A stretch of DNA of 37,552 nt from Acetatifactor sp. (GTDB lineage: Bacteria; Bacillota; Clostridia; Lachnospirales; Lachnospiraceae), in contig JAFLRO010000020.1 in the NCBI GenBank assembly GCA_022511425.1, forward strand, positions 1 to 37,552. Direction: 5' to 3'. Positions 24,427 to 28,396 of the stretch are shown here, piece by piece. The notes under the pieces are model-generated. The model had not been told where the DNA came from. It searched no databases and saw only the letters and a list, made by a program, of their open reading frames with translations. Positions within the stretch are counted from its first letter, which is position 1; the number at the start of each line of letters is the position of its first letter. The translations under genes were made by a program, and so were the position numbers.

Positions 24427-25143
24427 TTATTGCAAAGCCAGTTTTTTTATACTGGTCATGGCCTTCTTCACAGGGGGCAGGCAAAGTATGATGATTGTGA
24501 TAACGCCTTCTGCCAAAATGTAGGAATAGTTATAGGCAATGGGGTATATGGCGGCCAGAGAAGACGGGAAGTTTTCCGGCATATAATCCATCCAATATAG
24601 ATAACCGCCTATTGTATGAAAAAGACCTCTGGCGAGAATGGCGGCAATATATCCCTTGATAAGGCCGTTTTTCCGGTTGGCGAAAAAGCCTGAGCAGCCA
24701 AGTGCCGCAAAGGCAACAATATAATCCAAGCAGGCTTGAAGCAGAGAGAGAATATAACTACCGCCATCCTGTACGAACTGTAACAGACCATACGCAAATC
24801 CAGCACAGAGACCGATCTTTGGTCCATACCAGTAGCCGATCAGCGCAACAAAGAGCATGGAGCAGAGAGTGATGGAACCGCCCCAGGGCATAGTAAAAAT
24901 CCTTACATAGGAAGTGGCGAAGCCAAGTGCAAGGGCCATGGCACTGAAGACTAGCTGCTTTACGGAAAACAAGCTCTTGCGCTTTGATTCTGTTTTTGTT
25001 TTCTGTTCCTCACTGACCGCCTTTCCCTTACGGGCAATCAGAGCTGTTAGTATAACAAGGATGGCGATTATGACGACACACAGGACTATACCTGCGGTAG
25101 TCAGGGCATAATACCCATCTTCTGCGGAAATAAAGTATGACAT
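24427..25143 (-). CDS. thiT: ThiT, S-component of the ECF thiamine transporter
   Basis: A 238-aa integral membrane protein. The six-helix S-component core starts near residue 62 (LVFSAMALALGFATSYVRIF) and carries the ThiT landmarks MPWGGSITLCSMLFVALIGYWYG and FVQDGGSY, which belong to the thiamine pocket. It would bind thiamine and dock on a shared EcfAAT module encoded elsewhere. The N-terminus has an extra hydrophobic helix (about residues 15-37) and a charged linker before the core. A TPP riboswitch in the leader confirms the role. The start at 25143 has an AAGGAGG site that is held in a hairpin. Confidence 0.92.
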   Translation of the reverse strand: MSYFISAEDGYYALTTAGIVLCVVIIAILVILTALIARKGKAVSEEQKTKTESKRKSLFSVKQLVFSAMALALGFATSYVRIFTMPWGGSITLCSMLFVALIGYWYGPKIGLCAGFAYGLLQFVQDGGSYILSLLQACLDYIVAFAALGCSGFFANRKNGLIKGYIAAILARGLFHTIGGYLYWMDYMPENFPSSLAAIYPIAYNYSYILAEGVITIIILCLPPVKKAMTSIKKLALQ

Positions 25144-25173: not shown

Positions 25174-25256
25174 AACCCATCGTGCCCATTTCATACGGGC
25201 GCAGCCGAATATGTGGGCGCAGCAGAAAAATCCACTTACATGCAACGACTGCTTTG

Positions 25257-25347
25257 CTTCCTTACGCCGGTATTATCCGGTTCAAGTAGTGAGGGTCTTG
25301 GGGCGGTAATTTAGTACCGCCTTGATCTCAGCGATGTGCTCCCCTAG
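25257..25347 (-). ncRNA. TPP (THI) riboswitch
   Basis: On the minus strand the conserved THI elements occur in order: GGGGAGC, GCTGAGATCAAG, a stable P3a-like hairpin (GGCGGTA / TACCGCC), GACCCTCACTACTTGAACC and GGATAATACCGGCGTAAGGAAG. This is the thiamine pyrophosphate aptamer. About 110 bases of expression platform separate it from thiT, including two copies of GGGCGCAGC and the hairpin over the ribosome binding site. High TPP should reduce thiT expression. Confidence 0.93.
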
Positions 25348-25366
25348 CGGTTATTTAGTTAGGACT

Positions 25367-25443: not shown

Positions 25444-25549
25444 TATTCACAGAAGATACTGCGGCACTAGGGCGGCATTAGGACAGGATATGACTGGGCA
25501 TGACTGGAAATAACCGGAAATGACCGGCAATGGAAAGGAAACAGCAACT

Positions 25550-28396
25550 ATGCGGGGAAATCAGATAGTCATTGGCATCCTGGCTCATGTGGATGCGGGA
25601 AAGACCACCCTCTCGGAGGCTCTTCTCTATACCGGGGGCTCCCTGCGCAAGTTGGGCAGAGTGGATCATGGCGATGCCTTTCTGGACAATTTCTCCCTGG
25701 AGAGAGCCCGGGGCATCACAATCTTTTCCAAGCAGGCGAAACTGACTTGGGAGGGTTTGGATATGACCCTTCTGGACACACCGGGGCATGTAGATTTCAG
25801 CGCGGAGATGGAGCGGACACTTCAGGTGCTGGATTACTGTATACTGGTGATCAGCGGATCGGATGGAGTCCAGAGCCACACAGCTACCCTGTGGCGGCTG
25901 CTGGAACAATATAAAATCCCCACATTTCTCTTTATAAATAAGATGGATCAACCTGACACGGATCGGGAGAAGCTTCTGGAAGAATTGCGGGCCAGGCTGG
26001 ATTCAAGCTGCATGAATTTTGAGCCGGAGGCGGAACGGGACACGCAGTTTACAGAAAATCTTTCCCTTTGCAGCGAGGAACTGCTGGAGGAATATCTGGA
26101 GACAGGGGGACTGGAAGATGCTTCCCTGGCAGCAGCTATCAGCGACAGACGCATTTTCCCCTGTTACTTCGGATCAGCCCTTAAGCTGGAGGGAGTGGAA
26201 GAACTGCTGAGCGGACTTCGCAGATTTGCCCTTGCACCGGATTACCCGGAGCAGTTCGGAGCCAGGGTGTACAAGATTTCCCGGGATGCAAACGGAAATC
26301 GGCTGACTCACCTGAAGGTCACAGGAGGAACGCTGCGGGTGAAAATGCCTGTGAGTAACGGGGCAGGTACATCGGACTCGGAGCAGGTCTGGGAGGAGAA
26401 GGCGGACCAGCTGCGGGTGTACGACGGAGCGCAGTTTACTACCGTGGAGCAGGTGGAGGCAGGTGGCATCTGCGCTGTGATGGGCTTGGGAAGAACCTTT
26501 GCAGGGCAGGGATTGGGAGCGGAATCTGAAAGCCGGCTGCCCATTTTAGCTCCGGTGATGACCTACCGGGTGATTTTGCCGGAGGGCAGTGATGTCCTGA
26601 AGGTGCTGGGGCAGTTAAAGCAGCTGGAGGAGGAAGTGCCGGAACTTCATCTGGTCTGGAGAGAAGCTGTCAGGGAGATTCATGTCCAAGTCATGGGAGA
26701 GGTGCAGATTGAGATCCTGAAAGGTATGATCCTGGAGCGGTTTGGGCTGGAGGTGGAGTTCGGCAACGGAAATATTGTCTACCGGGAGACCATCGCTTCT
26801 CCGGTGGTGGGAATCGGGCATTTTGAGCCCCTGCGCCACTATGCGGAGGTACATCTTTTGCTGGAACCAGGAGAGCCGGGCAGCGGATTGCATTTTGCCT
26901 CCACGTGCAGCGAGGATGTACTGAATCGGAACTGGCAGCGGTTGGTCATCACCCACCTGGAGGAGAAGACCCACGTGGGGGTACTGACTGGCTCAGCCAT
27001 TACTGATATGAATATTACTCTGCTCACAGGCCGTGCCCATTTGAAGCATACCGAGGGAGGGGATTTCAGACAGGCTACTTATCGGGCCCTGCGCCAGGGG
27101 CTGATGCAGAGCGAGAGTGTGCTGCTGGAGCCGGTATATGCCTTTACTCTGGAGGTGCCCACAGAACAGCTGGGCCGGGCAATGTCGGATATTCAGCGGA
27201 TGCAGGGCAGCTTTGACAGTCCGGTGACGGAAGGGGAATGCAGTATCCTCAAAGGCAGTGTGCCTGTTTCGGAATTTGGTTCCTATCAGCGGGAAGTGAA
27301 TGCCTACACTAAGGGAAGGGGCAGGCTTTCCTTTACCCTGAAGGGATACGAACCCTGCCATAATGCGGAGGAGGTAATTAGCGCAAAAGGCTATGATCCT
27401 GAGGGGGATATGGAAAATCCTTCGTCCTCGGTATTCTGTTCCCATGGAGCTGGATTTTTGGTCAGTTGGGATCAGGTACCGGATTATGCTCATTTAGAGA
27501 GTGGATGGCAGCAGCCACAGGGTAGGAAACCGGGGATGGAGGACGTTTACGGTGGGGAGATTGGACAGGTGGACGAGGCAAATCGCCTTGCAGTCAATGG
27601 AGGTTTTGCCGCCGCAGGTTCCCGGTCAGCGCCCCCCAGCCAGACCGGCAGCGGCAGATCCGATTACATCACCCAGGAAGAGATTGAAGATATCTTTCAG
27701 CGCACCTATAAAAAGGGAGCTCAGGATTATGAGCCTTACCGCTACCACAATCGAAACCTGGGCGTTACGGTGACGGCGGAGGAAACTGATCAGGCTCCGA
27801 AATGCAATATGCGAAAAGGTTATCCAGCAGAAGGCGATTCCGAAAGCCCGGGCACCCACACAGGAGGCAGCAGACGGACTGCCTCAAAGCAGCAAACATT
27901 GGAAAACCGGGAGGAGTACCTGCTGGTAGATGGGTATAACATTATCTTTGCCTGGGAGGAACTTCGAAGTCTTGCTTCTGTCAATATAGACAGCGCCAGG
28001 GATAAACTTATGGACATCTGTTGCAACTATCAGGGCTATGCGGGCTGCACCCTGATCCTGGTCTACGATGCGTACAAGGTCAAGGGAAATCCCGGTTCTG
28101 TGCTGCAATACCACAATATACATGTAGTCTACACAAAAGAGGCAGAGACCGCAGACCAGTACATTGAGAAGACCGTTCATAAGATTGGCCGAAAGAATAG
28201 AGTAACTGTGGCCACTTCCGATGCTCTGGAGCAGATGATCATCTGGGGTGAGGGCGCTACAAGGCTGTCAGCAGCGGGATTTAAAGGGGCGGTGGAAACT
28301 GCTGAGCGGCAGCTTAAGGAGACTTACTCTGTTCAGAGCCGAGTTTATAACAAAATCGATGTGGATAAAATATTCCTTTCCAGAGGTGAAGAATAG
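25550..28396 (+). CDS. Tet(M)/EF-G-like translational GTPase fused to a Rae1/YacP-type NYN endonuclease
   Basis: A 948-aa fusion. The N-terminal part is a ribosomal-protection/EF-G-type GTPase: G1 AHVDAGKT (residues 12-19), switch ERARGITIFS, G3 DTPGH (76-80), G4 NKMD (130-133), and later EF-G-like domains including GRLSFTLKGYEPCH. A linker of about 130 residues rich in G, S, Q and E leads to a NYN domain from about residue 788. That domain matches Rae1 (YacP): LLVDGYN (Asp 794), NYQGYAG, VYDAYKVKG, TKEAETADQYIEK and VATSDALEQ, so the acidic active-site residues are kept. Rae1 of Bacillus subtilis cuts mRNA in the ribosomal A site. The inferred role is a GTPase that brings an mRNA endonuclease to the ribosome. 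I chose 25550 because GGAAAGGAA precedes it; 25520 is in frame. Confidence 0.88.
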   Translation: MRGNQIVIGILAHVDAGKTTLSEALLYTGGSLRKLGRVDHGDAFLDNFSLERARGITIFSKQAKLTWEGLDMTLLDTPGHVDFSAEMERTLQVLDYCILVISGSDGVQSHTATLWRLLEQYKIPTFLFINKMDQPDTDREKLLEELRARLDSSCMNFEPEAERDTQFTENLSLCSEELLEEYLETGGLEDASLAAAISDRRIFPCYFGSALKLEGVEELLSGLRRFALAPDYPEQFGARVYKISRDANGNRLTHLKVTGGTLRVKMPVSNGAGTSDSEQVWEEKADQLRVYDGAQFTTVEQVEAGGICAVMGLGRTFAGQGLGAESESRLPILAPVMTYRVILPEGSDVLKVLGQLKQLEEEVPELHLVWREAVREIHVQVMGEVQIEILKGMILERFGLEVEFGNGNIVYRETIASPVVGIGHFEPLRHYAEVHLLLEPGEPGSGLHFASTCSEDVLNRNWQRLVITHLEEKTHVGVLTGSAITDMNITLLTGRAHLKHTEGGDFRQATYRALRQGLMQSESVLLEPVYAFTLEVPTEQLGRAMSDIQRMQGSFDSPVTEGECSILKGSVPVSEFGSYQREVNAYTKGRGRLSFTLKGYEPCHNAEEVISAKGYDPEGDMENPSSSVFCSHGAGFLVSWDQVPDYAHLESGWQQPQGRKPGMEDVYGGEIGQVDEANRLAVNGGFAAAGSRSAPPSQTGSGRSDYITQEEIEDIFQRTYKKGAQDYEPYRYHNRNLGVTVTAEETDQAPKCNMRKGYPAEGDSESPGTHTGGSRRTASKQQTLENREEYLLVDGYNIIFAWEELRSLASVNIDSARDKLMDICCNYQGYAGCTLILVYDAYKVKGNPGSVLQYHNIHVVYTKEAETADQYIEKTVHKIGRKNRVTVATSDALEQMIIWGEGATRLSAAGFKGAVETAERQLKETYSVQSRVYNKIDVDKIFLSRGEE

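Follow-up and report, generated by a model that had tools for sequence, protein, structure and literature searches.

What might a cell do with a single protein in which a translational GTPase is joined to a domain of an mRNA endonuclease? The question is raised by a gene of Acetatifactor sp. (Lachnospiraceae) that lies on contig JAFLRO010000020.1 of assembly GCA_022511425.1, and we refer to the whole stretch analyzed, positions 1 to 37,552 of the forward strand (37,552 nucleotides), as the window. An earlier note, made from the DNA letters alone, had described the gene product as a GTPase of the Tet(M)/EF-G type carrying a Rae1-like NYN domain. We confirm that the fusion of an EF-G/Tet-type GTPase with an NYN_YacP (Rae1) domain is real, and we give a probability of about one half to the reading in which the protein serves as the Rae1 of this cell and is brought to the ribosome by the translational GTPase that it carries.

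Two enzymes in one open frame

The gene spans 25520..28396 on the plus strand, a single open frame of 958 codons from the first in-frame ATG, which encodes 958 amino acids with zero internal stops. A second in-frame ATG at position 25550, the start used in the earlier note, leaves 948 codons; it is the likelier start because a GGAAAGG stretch precedes it and because conservation begins near residue 13. Residues are numbered here from the first ATG, so that the D794 of that note is our D804. A frame error or an assembly join of two genes was considered and rejected, since full-length fused homologues are found in many separate genomes.

The G domain (GTP_EFTU; Pfam, 8.7e-51) occupies residues 16-233 (25565..26218) and contains an AHVDAGKTT P-loop, DTPGH, and NKMD. 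It is followed by domains II and III at residues 247-415 (26258..26764), where the Pfam matches to EF-G_D2 and EFG_III both fall slightly below the cut-off, and by domains IV and V (26771..27364), detected as EFG_IV (residues 418-531, 5.9e-17) and EFG_C (residues 534-615, 8.1e-19). A GTP_EFTU domain with P-loop, DTPGH, and NKxD, together with EF-G domains II-V, places the protein in the translational GTPase superfamily. For comparison we assembled 121 distinct fused proteins, 28 unfused heads (GTPases of the same family without the NYN domain), and 31 stand-alone NYN proteins. The columns of the P-loop lysine K28, DTPGH, and N140/K141/D143 are identical in all 121 fused and all 28 unfused relatives.

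The NYN_YacP domain (PF05991) lies at residues 801-941 (27920..28342; Pfam, 3.8e-48) and scored 164 bits against a cut-off of 24.6, matching positions 1-143 of the 166 of the model. At E<=0.001 the NYN region matched two PDB sequences, both of them B. subtilis YacP/Rae1 (5mq8 and 5mq9; best 3.8e-27). The DGYN, DA, ETAD, and TSD blocks align between this region and Rae1, and D804, D850, D879, and D901 correspond to Rae1 D7, D53, D81, and D104, which we take to be the catalytic residues. All four aspartates are present in 121 of 121 fused relatives; the ETAD block is found in 92 of these and reads QTAD, with the aspartate retained, in the other 29. The stand-alone NYN proteins likewise keep the four aspartate columns (31/31), with TSD in 27 and TTD or TGD in 4. 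Judged by these columns, the G motifs and the four NYN aspartates, both active sites appear to be kept in the fused relatives. The layout proposed in the earlier note, a complete translational GTPase followed by a long linker and a Rae1-type NYN domain with its acids, is thus borne out by the Pfam domains, the motifs, and the alignment to Rae1. In PMC6613710 and PMC12320835, Rae1 of B. subtilis is presented as an endonuclease that cuts mRNA in the A site. It has the same four aspartates and family blocks (PDB 5mq8), but it is a stand-alone protein of ~180 amino acids, whereas the version in the window is the C-terminal domain of a GTPase, attached through a long linker.

This linker (residues 659-797; 27494..27910) is poorly conserved and probably disordered. 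Among 92 fused proteins, the distance from W650 to D804 ranges from 88 to 155 residues with a median of 109. A random-chain estimate gives ~70-95 Å end to end, which we took as enough to reach from the factor site to the A site. At residues 719-731 (27674..27712) the linker contains QEEIEDIFQRTYK, for which the consensus is ELEEIFxRTYG. This motif was found in 89 of the 121 fused proteins in its strict form and in 112 in a relaxed form, in none of the 28 unfused heads, and in none of the 31 stand-alone NYN proteins; the strict pattern matched once in 4600 shuffled linkers. Seven of the nine fused proteins outside the relaxed pattern have look-alike forms, and two (L152 and L157) have none. Searched against solved structures, the motif gave one match with an E value of 0.88, taken as chance. 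The linker is long, as first described, but with a conserved motif in it the linker is more than a spacer.

A GTPase head distinct from Tet proteins and EF-G

The first name that searches gave to the GTPase head was Tet: Tet proteins lead its matches in NCBIfam and PDB, and EF-G follows closely. Nevertheless, the head scored 407.8 bits on the general NCBIfam Tet model, with a cut-off of 775, and 265 bits on the TetM/W model, with a cut-off of 1100 that a control Tet protein (L194) exceeded at 1308 bits. It also stayed below the cut-offs of two EF-G models (290.5 against 659.4 and 323.4 against 583). A profile built from the head family found TetO/TetM (449) and EF-G (435) at about equal distance, and the nearest solved relatives of domains IV-V by sequence were EF-G (73.7 bits), with TetO at 58.9 bits.

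The tip of domain IV reads HLKHTEGGDF (residues 507-516; 27038..27067) at a place that is occupied by YYSPVSTPADF, or a variant of it, in the Tet rows displayed and by SYHPVDSSEQAF in the EF-G-type row L061. The pattern HxKHTxGGDF, in which K may be E, Q, or R, was found in 120 of the 121 fused proteins (the exception being L276) and in 28 of the 28 unfused heads. Its first histidine, H507, aligns with the EF-G tip histidine, H583 in E. coli numbering. Replacement of this residue (H583K) stalls translocation according to PMC4490557, and the tip loops of Tet proteins are what dislodges tetracycline according to Atkinson 2015 (PMC4342817). Downstream, a C-terminal tail at residues 613-658 (27356..27493; CHN..EVI...SVFC..G..F.V.W..V..Y.H) is common to fused and unfused members. 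The Tet rows lack its CHN and SVFC..G blocks, and L192, which diverges most among the unfused rows, has CHN without the SVFC block. In our trees of the head, four Tet-like rows (L194 to L197) group together in a starred clade, apart from the fused proteins and the unfused GTPases of ~650 amino acids. Of the three that were scanned, L194 and L196 score above a Tet cut-off and L197 reaches 702.6 bits against 775.

By these sequence measures, the head belongs to a clade of its own, at a similar distance from Tet and from EF-G, and lies outside the Tet family; we rejected membership in the latter because cut-offs, tip, tail, and tree all speak against it, and the assignment of the GTPase to the Tet(M) type does not stand. 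Tet(M), Tet(O), and Tet(W) have the five-domain, EF-G-like layout in common with the head and differ from it in tip, C-terminal tail, clade, and scores. EF-G likewise shares all domains, is the closest relative of domains IV-V, and has the aligned tip histidine, but the head has its own tail, KHTEGGDF in the rest of the tip, and scores far under the EF-G models.

Records nevertheless carry the Tet name, as the earlier note had anticipated. Two large plasmid-type replicons encode the fusion. One of them (NZ_CP143948.1, Agathobacter rectalis) names its 933-amino-acid fusion a TetM/TetW/TetO/TetS family tetracycline resistance protein, and this protein scores 262 bits on the TetM/W model with its cut-off of 1100; the other names its fusion a translation factor GTPase family protein. 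In Atkinson 2015 (PMC4342817), Tet proteins with a YacP-like NYN domain are reported from ten Clostridiales species, RNase-based antibiotic resistance is suggested for them, and a test of their rRNA RNase ability is proposed. That architecture is the same as ours and very likely represents the same group, but it is counted there as Tet and resistance, whereas we find a separate GTPase clade that is spread class-wide and tied to Rae1. The term YacP-like NYN does not occur in the main text of PMC8547433. We found no functional study of the fusion in the literature searched, the coverage of which mostly excludes subscription papers. The earlier statement that no protein of this layout has been characterized therefore holds for function, but the architecture itself had been published, which is in part one of the findings that the note had named as grounds for its refutation.

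Distribution and history of the fusion

To determine how widely the fusion occurs, we sampled 293 Clostridia genomes evenly, each with a completeness of 95% or more, and searched them with a head-family profile (A2). Matches were followed down to ~448 bits, and the family line was set at >640 bits, where the scores leave a gap under 647 bits; the full-length matches that come next (596 bits or lower) end near position 604-624 of 653 and are Tet- or EF-G-like. A family member was found in 123 of the 293 genomes. In 99 of them the frame has at least 800 amino acids and is fused (although a stop interrupts the match in G514 and G622), 3 resemble broken fusions (G589, G593, and G497), and 21 are unfused, 15 with an additional stand-alone NYN protein and 6 without any NYN. 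Two genomes with short matches, G594 (492 bits over 357 positions) and G633 (451 over 374), gave member-like scores per position and were counted as lacking the family; the matches are probably fragments. NYN_YacP was found in 193 of the 293 genomes. Fused genes of three genomes (L272, L273, and L274) are split up between frames or run off the end of a contig, through either error or decay. One genome (G551) has two unfused GTPase copies, and the unfused GTPase of two Lachnospiraceae genera (L211 and L213) has lexA and the L27-obg-yhbY-rsfS cluster of ribosome assembly in its vicinity.

Among 140 Lachnospiraceae genomes, nearly one per genus, in which only the NYN half was searched, NYN_YacP was present in 127: 7 stand-alone (174-185 amino acids), 5 short or cut (214-601), and 115 of fused length (at least 690). 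A phylum-level sample of 299 genomes had the family in 26 and a fused-length member in 20, some of them outside Clostridia. The fusion is carried in records named Blautia, Faecalicatena, Murimonas, Sellimonas, and Lacrimispora, among others, with a genome of Lacrimispora saccharolytica as one example, and the protein of the window is nearest to one from an Acetatifactor record. Two unannotated records labeled 'Bacteriophage sp.' from human feces (MT835563.1 and MT835514.1) also encode the fusion, at ~52% identity, and may be bacterial flanks. TetM/W-type genes above the cut-off were found in 20 of the 293 Clostridia genomes, 6 of which also have the fusion; six rows have exactly 1284.4 bits and come from five families. 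The genome of the window had no TetM/W-type gene among the matches listed. When the same genome was searched for GTP_EFTU, a single protein of EF-G type was listed but no clear match of EF-Tu size, which probably reflects a gap in the assembly of 198 contigs.

Phylogenetic analysis placed the fused GTPases in one clade. A first head tree included 59 fused rows, namely that of the window, 45 drawn at random from the Lachnospiraceae rows, and 13 more, and these required one change with a support of 99. In a second tree, which covered the class, one change again sufficed for 48 fused rows selected for their spread, with a support of 100 and all 28 unfused rows outside. Both trees are quick ones, and the placement of long rows, L192 and L275 among them, is uncertain. 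For the NYN domain the tree requires two changes, since a pair of fused rows from one family (f22) sits among stand-alone rows; a single clade was not rejected there (p-AU 0.41). Repeated independent fusions thus gain no support from the GTPase trees, the NYN tree being less clear, and the idea that NYN-less heads are trimmed fusions was likewise not supported, since six such proteins lie outside the fused clade.

Stand-alone rae1 is found in the order cysS-mrnC-thyX-rlmB-rae1-sigH in one genome (G042), an order in which C. difficile is also annotated, and rae1 adjoins rlmB in another (G290). Twelve C. difficile records labeled 'plasmid' match NYN as well. The one examined (L288; NZ_CP149721.1, 96.6 kb) carries cysS, rlmB, rae1, sigH, tuf, nusG, rplK, and rplA and probably represents part of a chromosome under a plasmid label; with these core chromosomal genes on it, we set aside carriage of rae1 on C. 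difficile plasmids. In the window itself, an Rfam scan at default thresholds gave no match. A focused search found a thiamine pyrophosphate (TPP) riboswitch aptamer at 25242-25355 on the minus strand, at 51.1 bits against a gathering score of 54.3, upstream of a thiamine transporter gene (Thia_YuaJ, 24427-25143, minus strand).

A proposed tethered Rae1 and its alternatives

How could both halves work on one ribosome? In the reading that we favor, in which the GTPase delivers the cell's Rae1, the GTP form of the EF-G-like head would bind the factor site of a paused ribosome and its domain IV would enter the A site. GTP hydrolysis would then let the head leave, perhaps after shifting or dislodging the occupant of the A site, and the Rae1 domain, on its tether of ~110 residues, would enter in turn and cut the exposed codon. 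The message would be destroyed, and trans-translation, which could follow because SmpB is encoded, would free the ribosome. Ribosome binding, the order of events, cleavage in the A site, its coupling to the GTPase, and the trigger are all proposed here from the domains present, and a role in rescue or stress response, as suggested in the earlier note, we infer in the same way. The sequences favor this reading in that both enzymes sit in one chain with their active sites kept, the fused proteins form a single clade across the class, the head lies outside Tet, and the linker motif is confined to fused members. In line with the fusion being the cell's Rae1, 95 of the 99 fused genomes had a single NYN_YacP match among the matches listed.

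A more specific form of this model, which we offer tentatively, is a no-go-decay machine in one chain: the head would sense the pause, GTP would clear the A site, the tethered Rae1 would cut, and ELEEIFxRTYG would serve to dock the tether, either to the ribosome or to the head in its resting state. Such a machine would mostly be the only Rae1 in about one third of the sampled Clostridia. In eukaryotes, Hbs1/Dom34 and the no-go decay nucleases likewise partner a translational GTPase with an A-site factor and an mRNA cut. The likeness is one of working only, as the fusion differs in having an unrelated nuclease, in being a single chain, and in being bacterial.

Several observations weigh against the delivery of Rae1 by its GTPase. 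Domain IV and Rae1 would share the A site, which cannot take both at once, and the coupling would therefore have to be sequential or act on a second or neighboring ribosome. Two NYN matches were present in 4 of the 99 fused genomes (G563, G610, G637, and G697) among the matches listed. In keeping with a replacement of rae1 by the fusion, the gene was beside rlmB in none of nine fused genomes looked at, including that of the window (cysS-mrnC-rlmB-sigH, no rae1), but it is also not found there in the unfused G229 and G373, which carry it elsewhere, or in the NYN-less G425 and G421. Departure from the rlmB place is therefore not special to the fusion, and the two unfused genomes led us to reject it as a mark of the fusion alone. 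Across 100 loci, the majority of which are fused, no gene neighbor was conserved; the most frequent cluster occurred in 17.

Co-occurrence speaks for the pairing of head and nuclease, but weakly outside the fusion. Across the 293 genomes, 117 have both head and NYN, 6 the head only, 76 NYN only, and 94 neither; this is a strong association (p 1e-21), most of which is due to the fusion itself. With fused and broken genes excluded, NYN was present in 15 of 21 genomes with an unfused head and in 76 of 170 without (p 0.035), or, with the two probable fragments recounted, in 15 of 22 and 75 of 168 (p 0.043), both values being uncorrected for kinship; the association in these genomes is weak. Among 40 hand-picked genomes, 21 have NYN solely as a stand-alone protein, and 15 of these contain the head, in three cases (G405, G059, and G049) as a partial or divergent match. 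None of the 16 genomes without NYN contains it, the two matches there (G057 and G094) being Tet, and the other three genomes were fused. A strict rule that the head occurs only with NYN was ruled out by the six exceptions in the larger sample. Head and NYN are thus truly but loosely paired, and either can exist without the other. Since 6 of the 21 unfused-head genomes are NYN-less and 76 NYN genomes are head-less, each half would have a role of its own.

These last counts speak for an alternative that we consider unlikely but serious, in which a specialized translation factor (for translocation, recycling, or rescue) and an ordinary Rae1 act independently on one chain and the fusion fixes only their dosage or location. 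A long, variable linker would suit this explanation too. Less expected from it are a single fused clade in 99 of 293 genomes, the intact active sites in 121 proteins, a linker motif confined to fused members, and the usual lack of a second NYN.

A role in ribosome assembly, rRNA processing, or hibernation, with the head on immature or idle subunits and the NYN domain processing rRNA or tRNA, is in our estimate improbable. PMC4342817 cites a proposal that the NYN domain matures rRNA and tRNA, and the unfused GTPase lies near L27-obg-yhbY-rsfS in G229 and G373. Among the loci searched, however, this cluster was found only at G373 and at G229 and G129, two genomes of the same genus, and PMC6613710 and PMC12320835 report B. 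subtilis Rae1 as an A-site nuclease of mRNA.

At slightly longer odds still, the protein could be a ribosome-protection protein for tetracycline resistance that acquired an RNase, as Atkinson 2015 and the A. rectalis record name would have it. The top matches agree with that name, but the head and the A. rectalis protein both score far under the Tet cut-offs that the control passes, YYSPVSTPADF is replaced at the tip, the clade is separate, and only 6 of the 20 genomes with a TetM/W-type gene above the cut-off also have the fusion. A defense or toxin-like factor that shuts translation down on phage attack, as RelE-type A-site mRNases can do, is very improbable given no match in PADLOC (a defense library), a presence in about a third of the sampled Clostridia, and no conserved neighbors.

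For the annotation of gut commensals, a fusion named Tet while scoring below the Tet cut-off could inflate counts of resistance genes. For the Rae1 family, a natural fusion to a GTPase points to a possible partner in how this A-site nuclease finds the ribosome, and it would allow that question to be put to the test in one protein.

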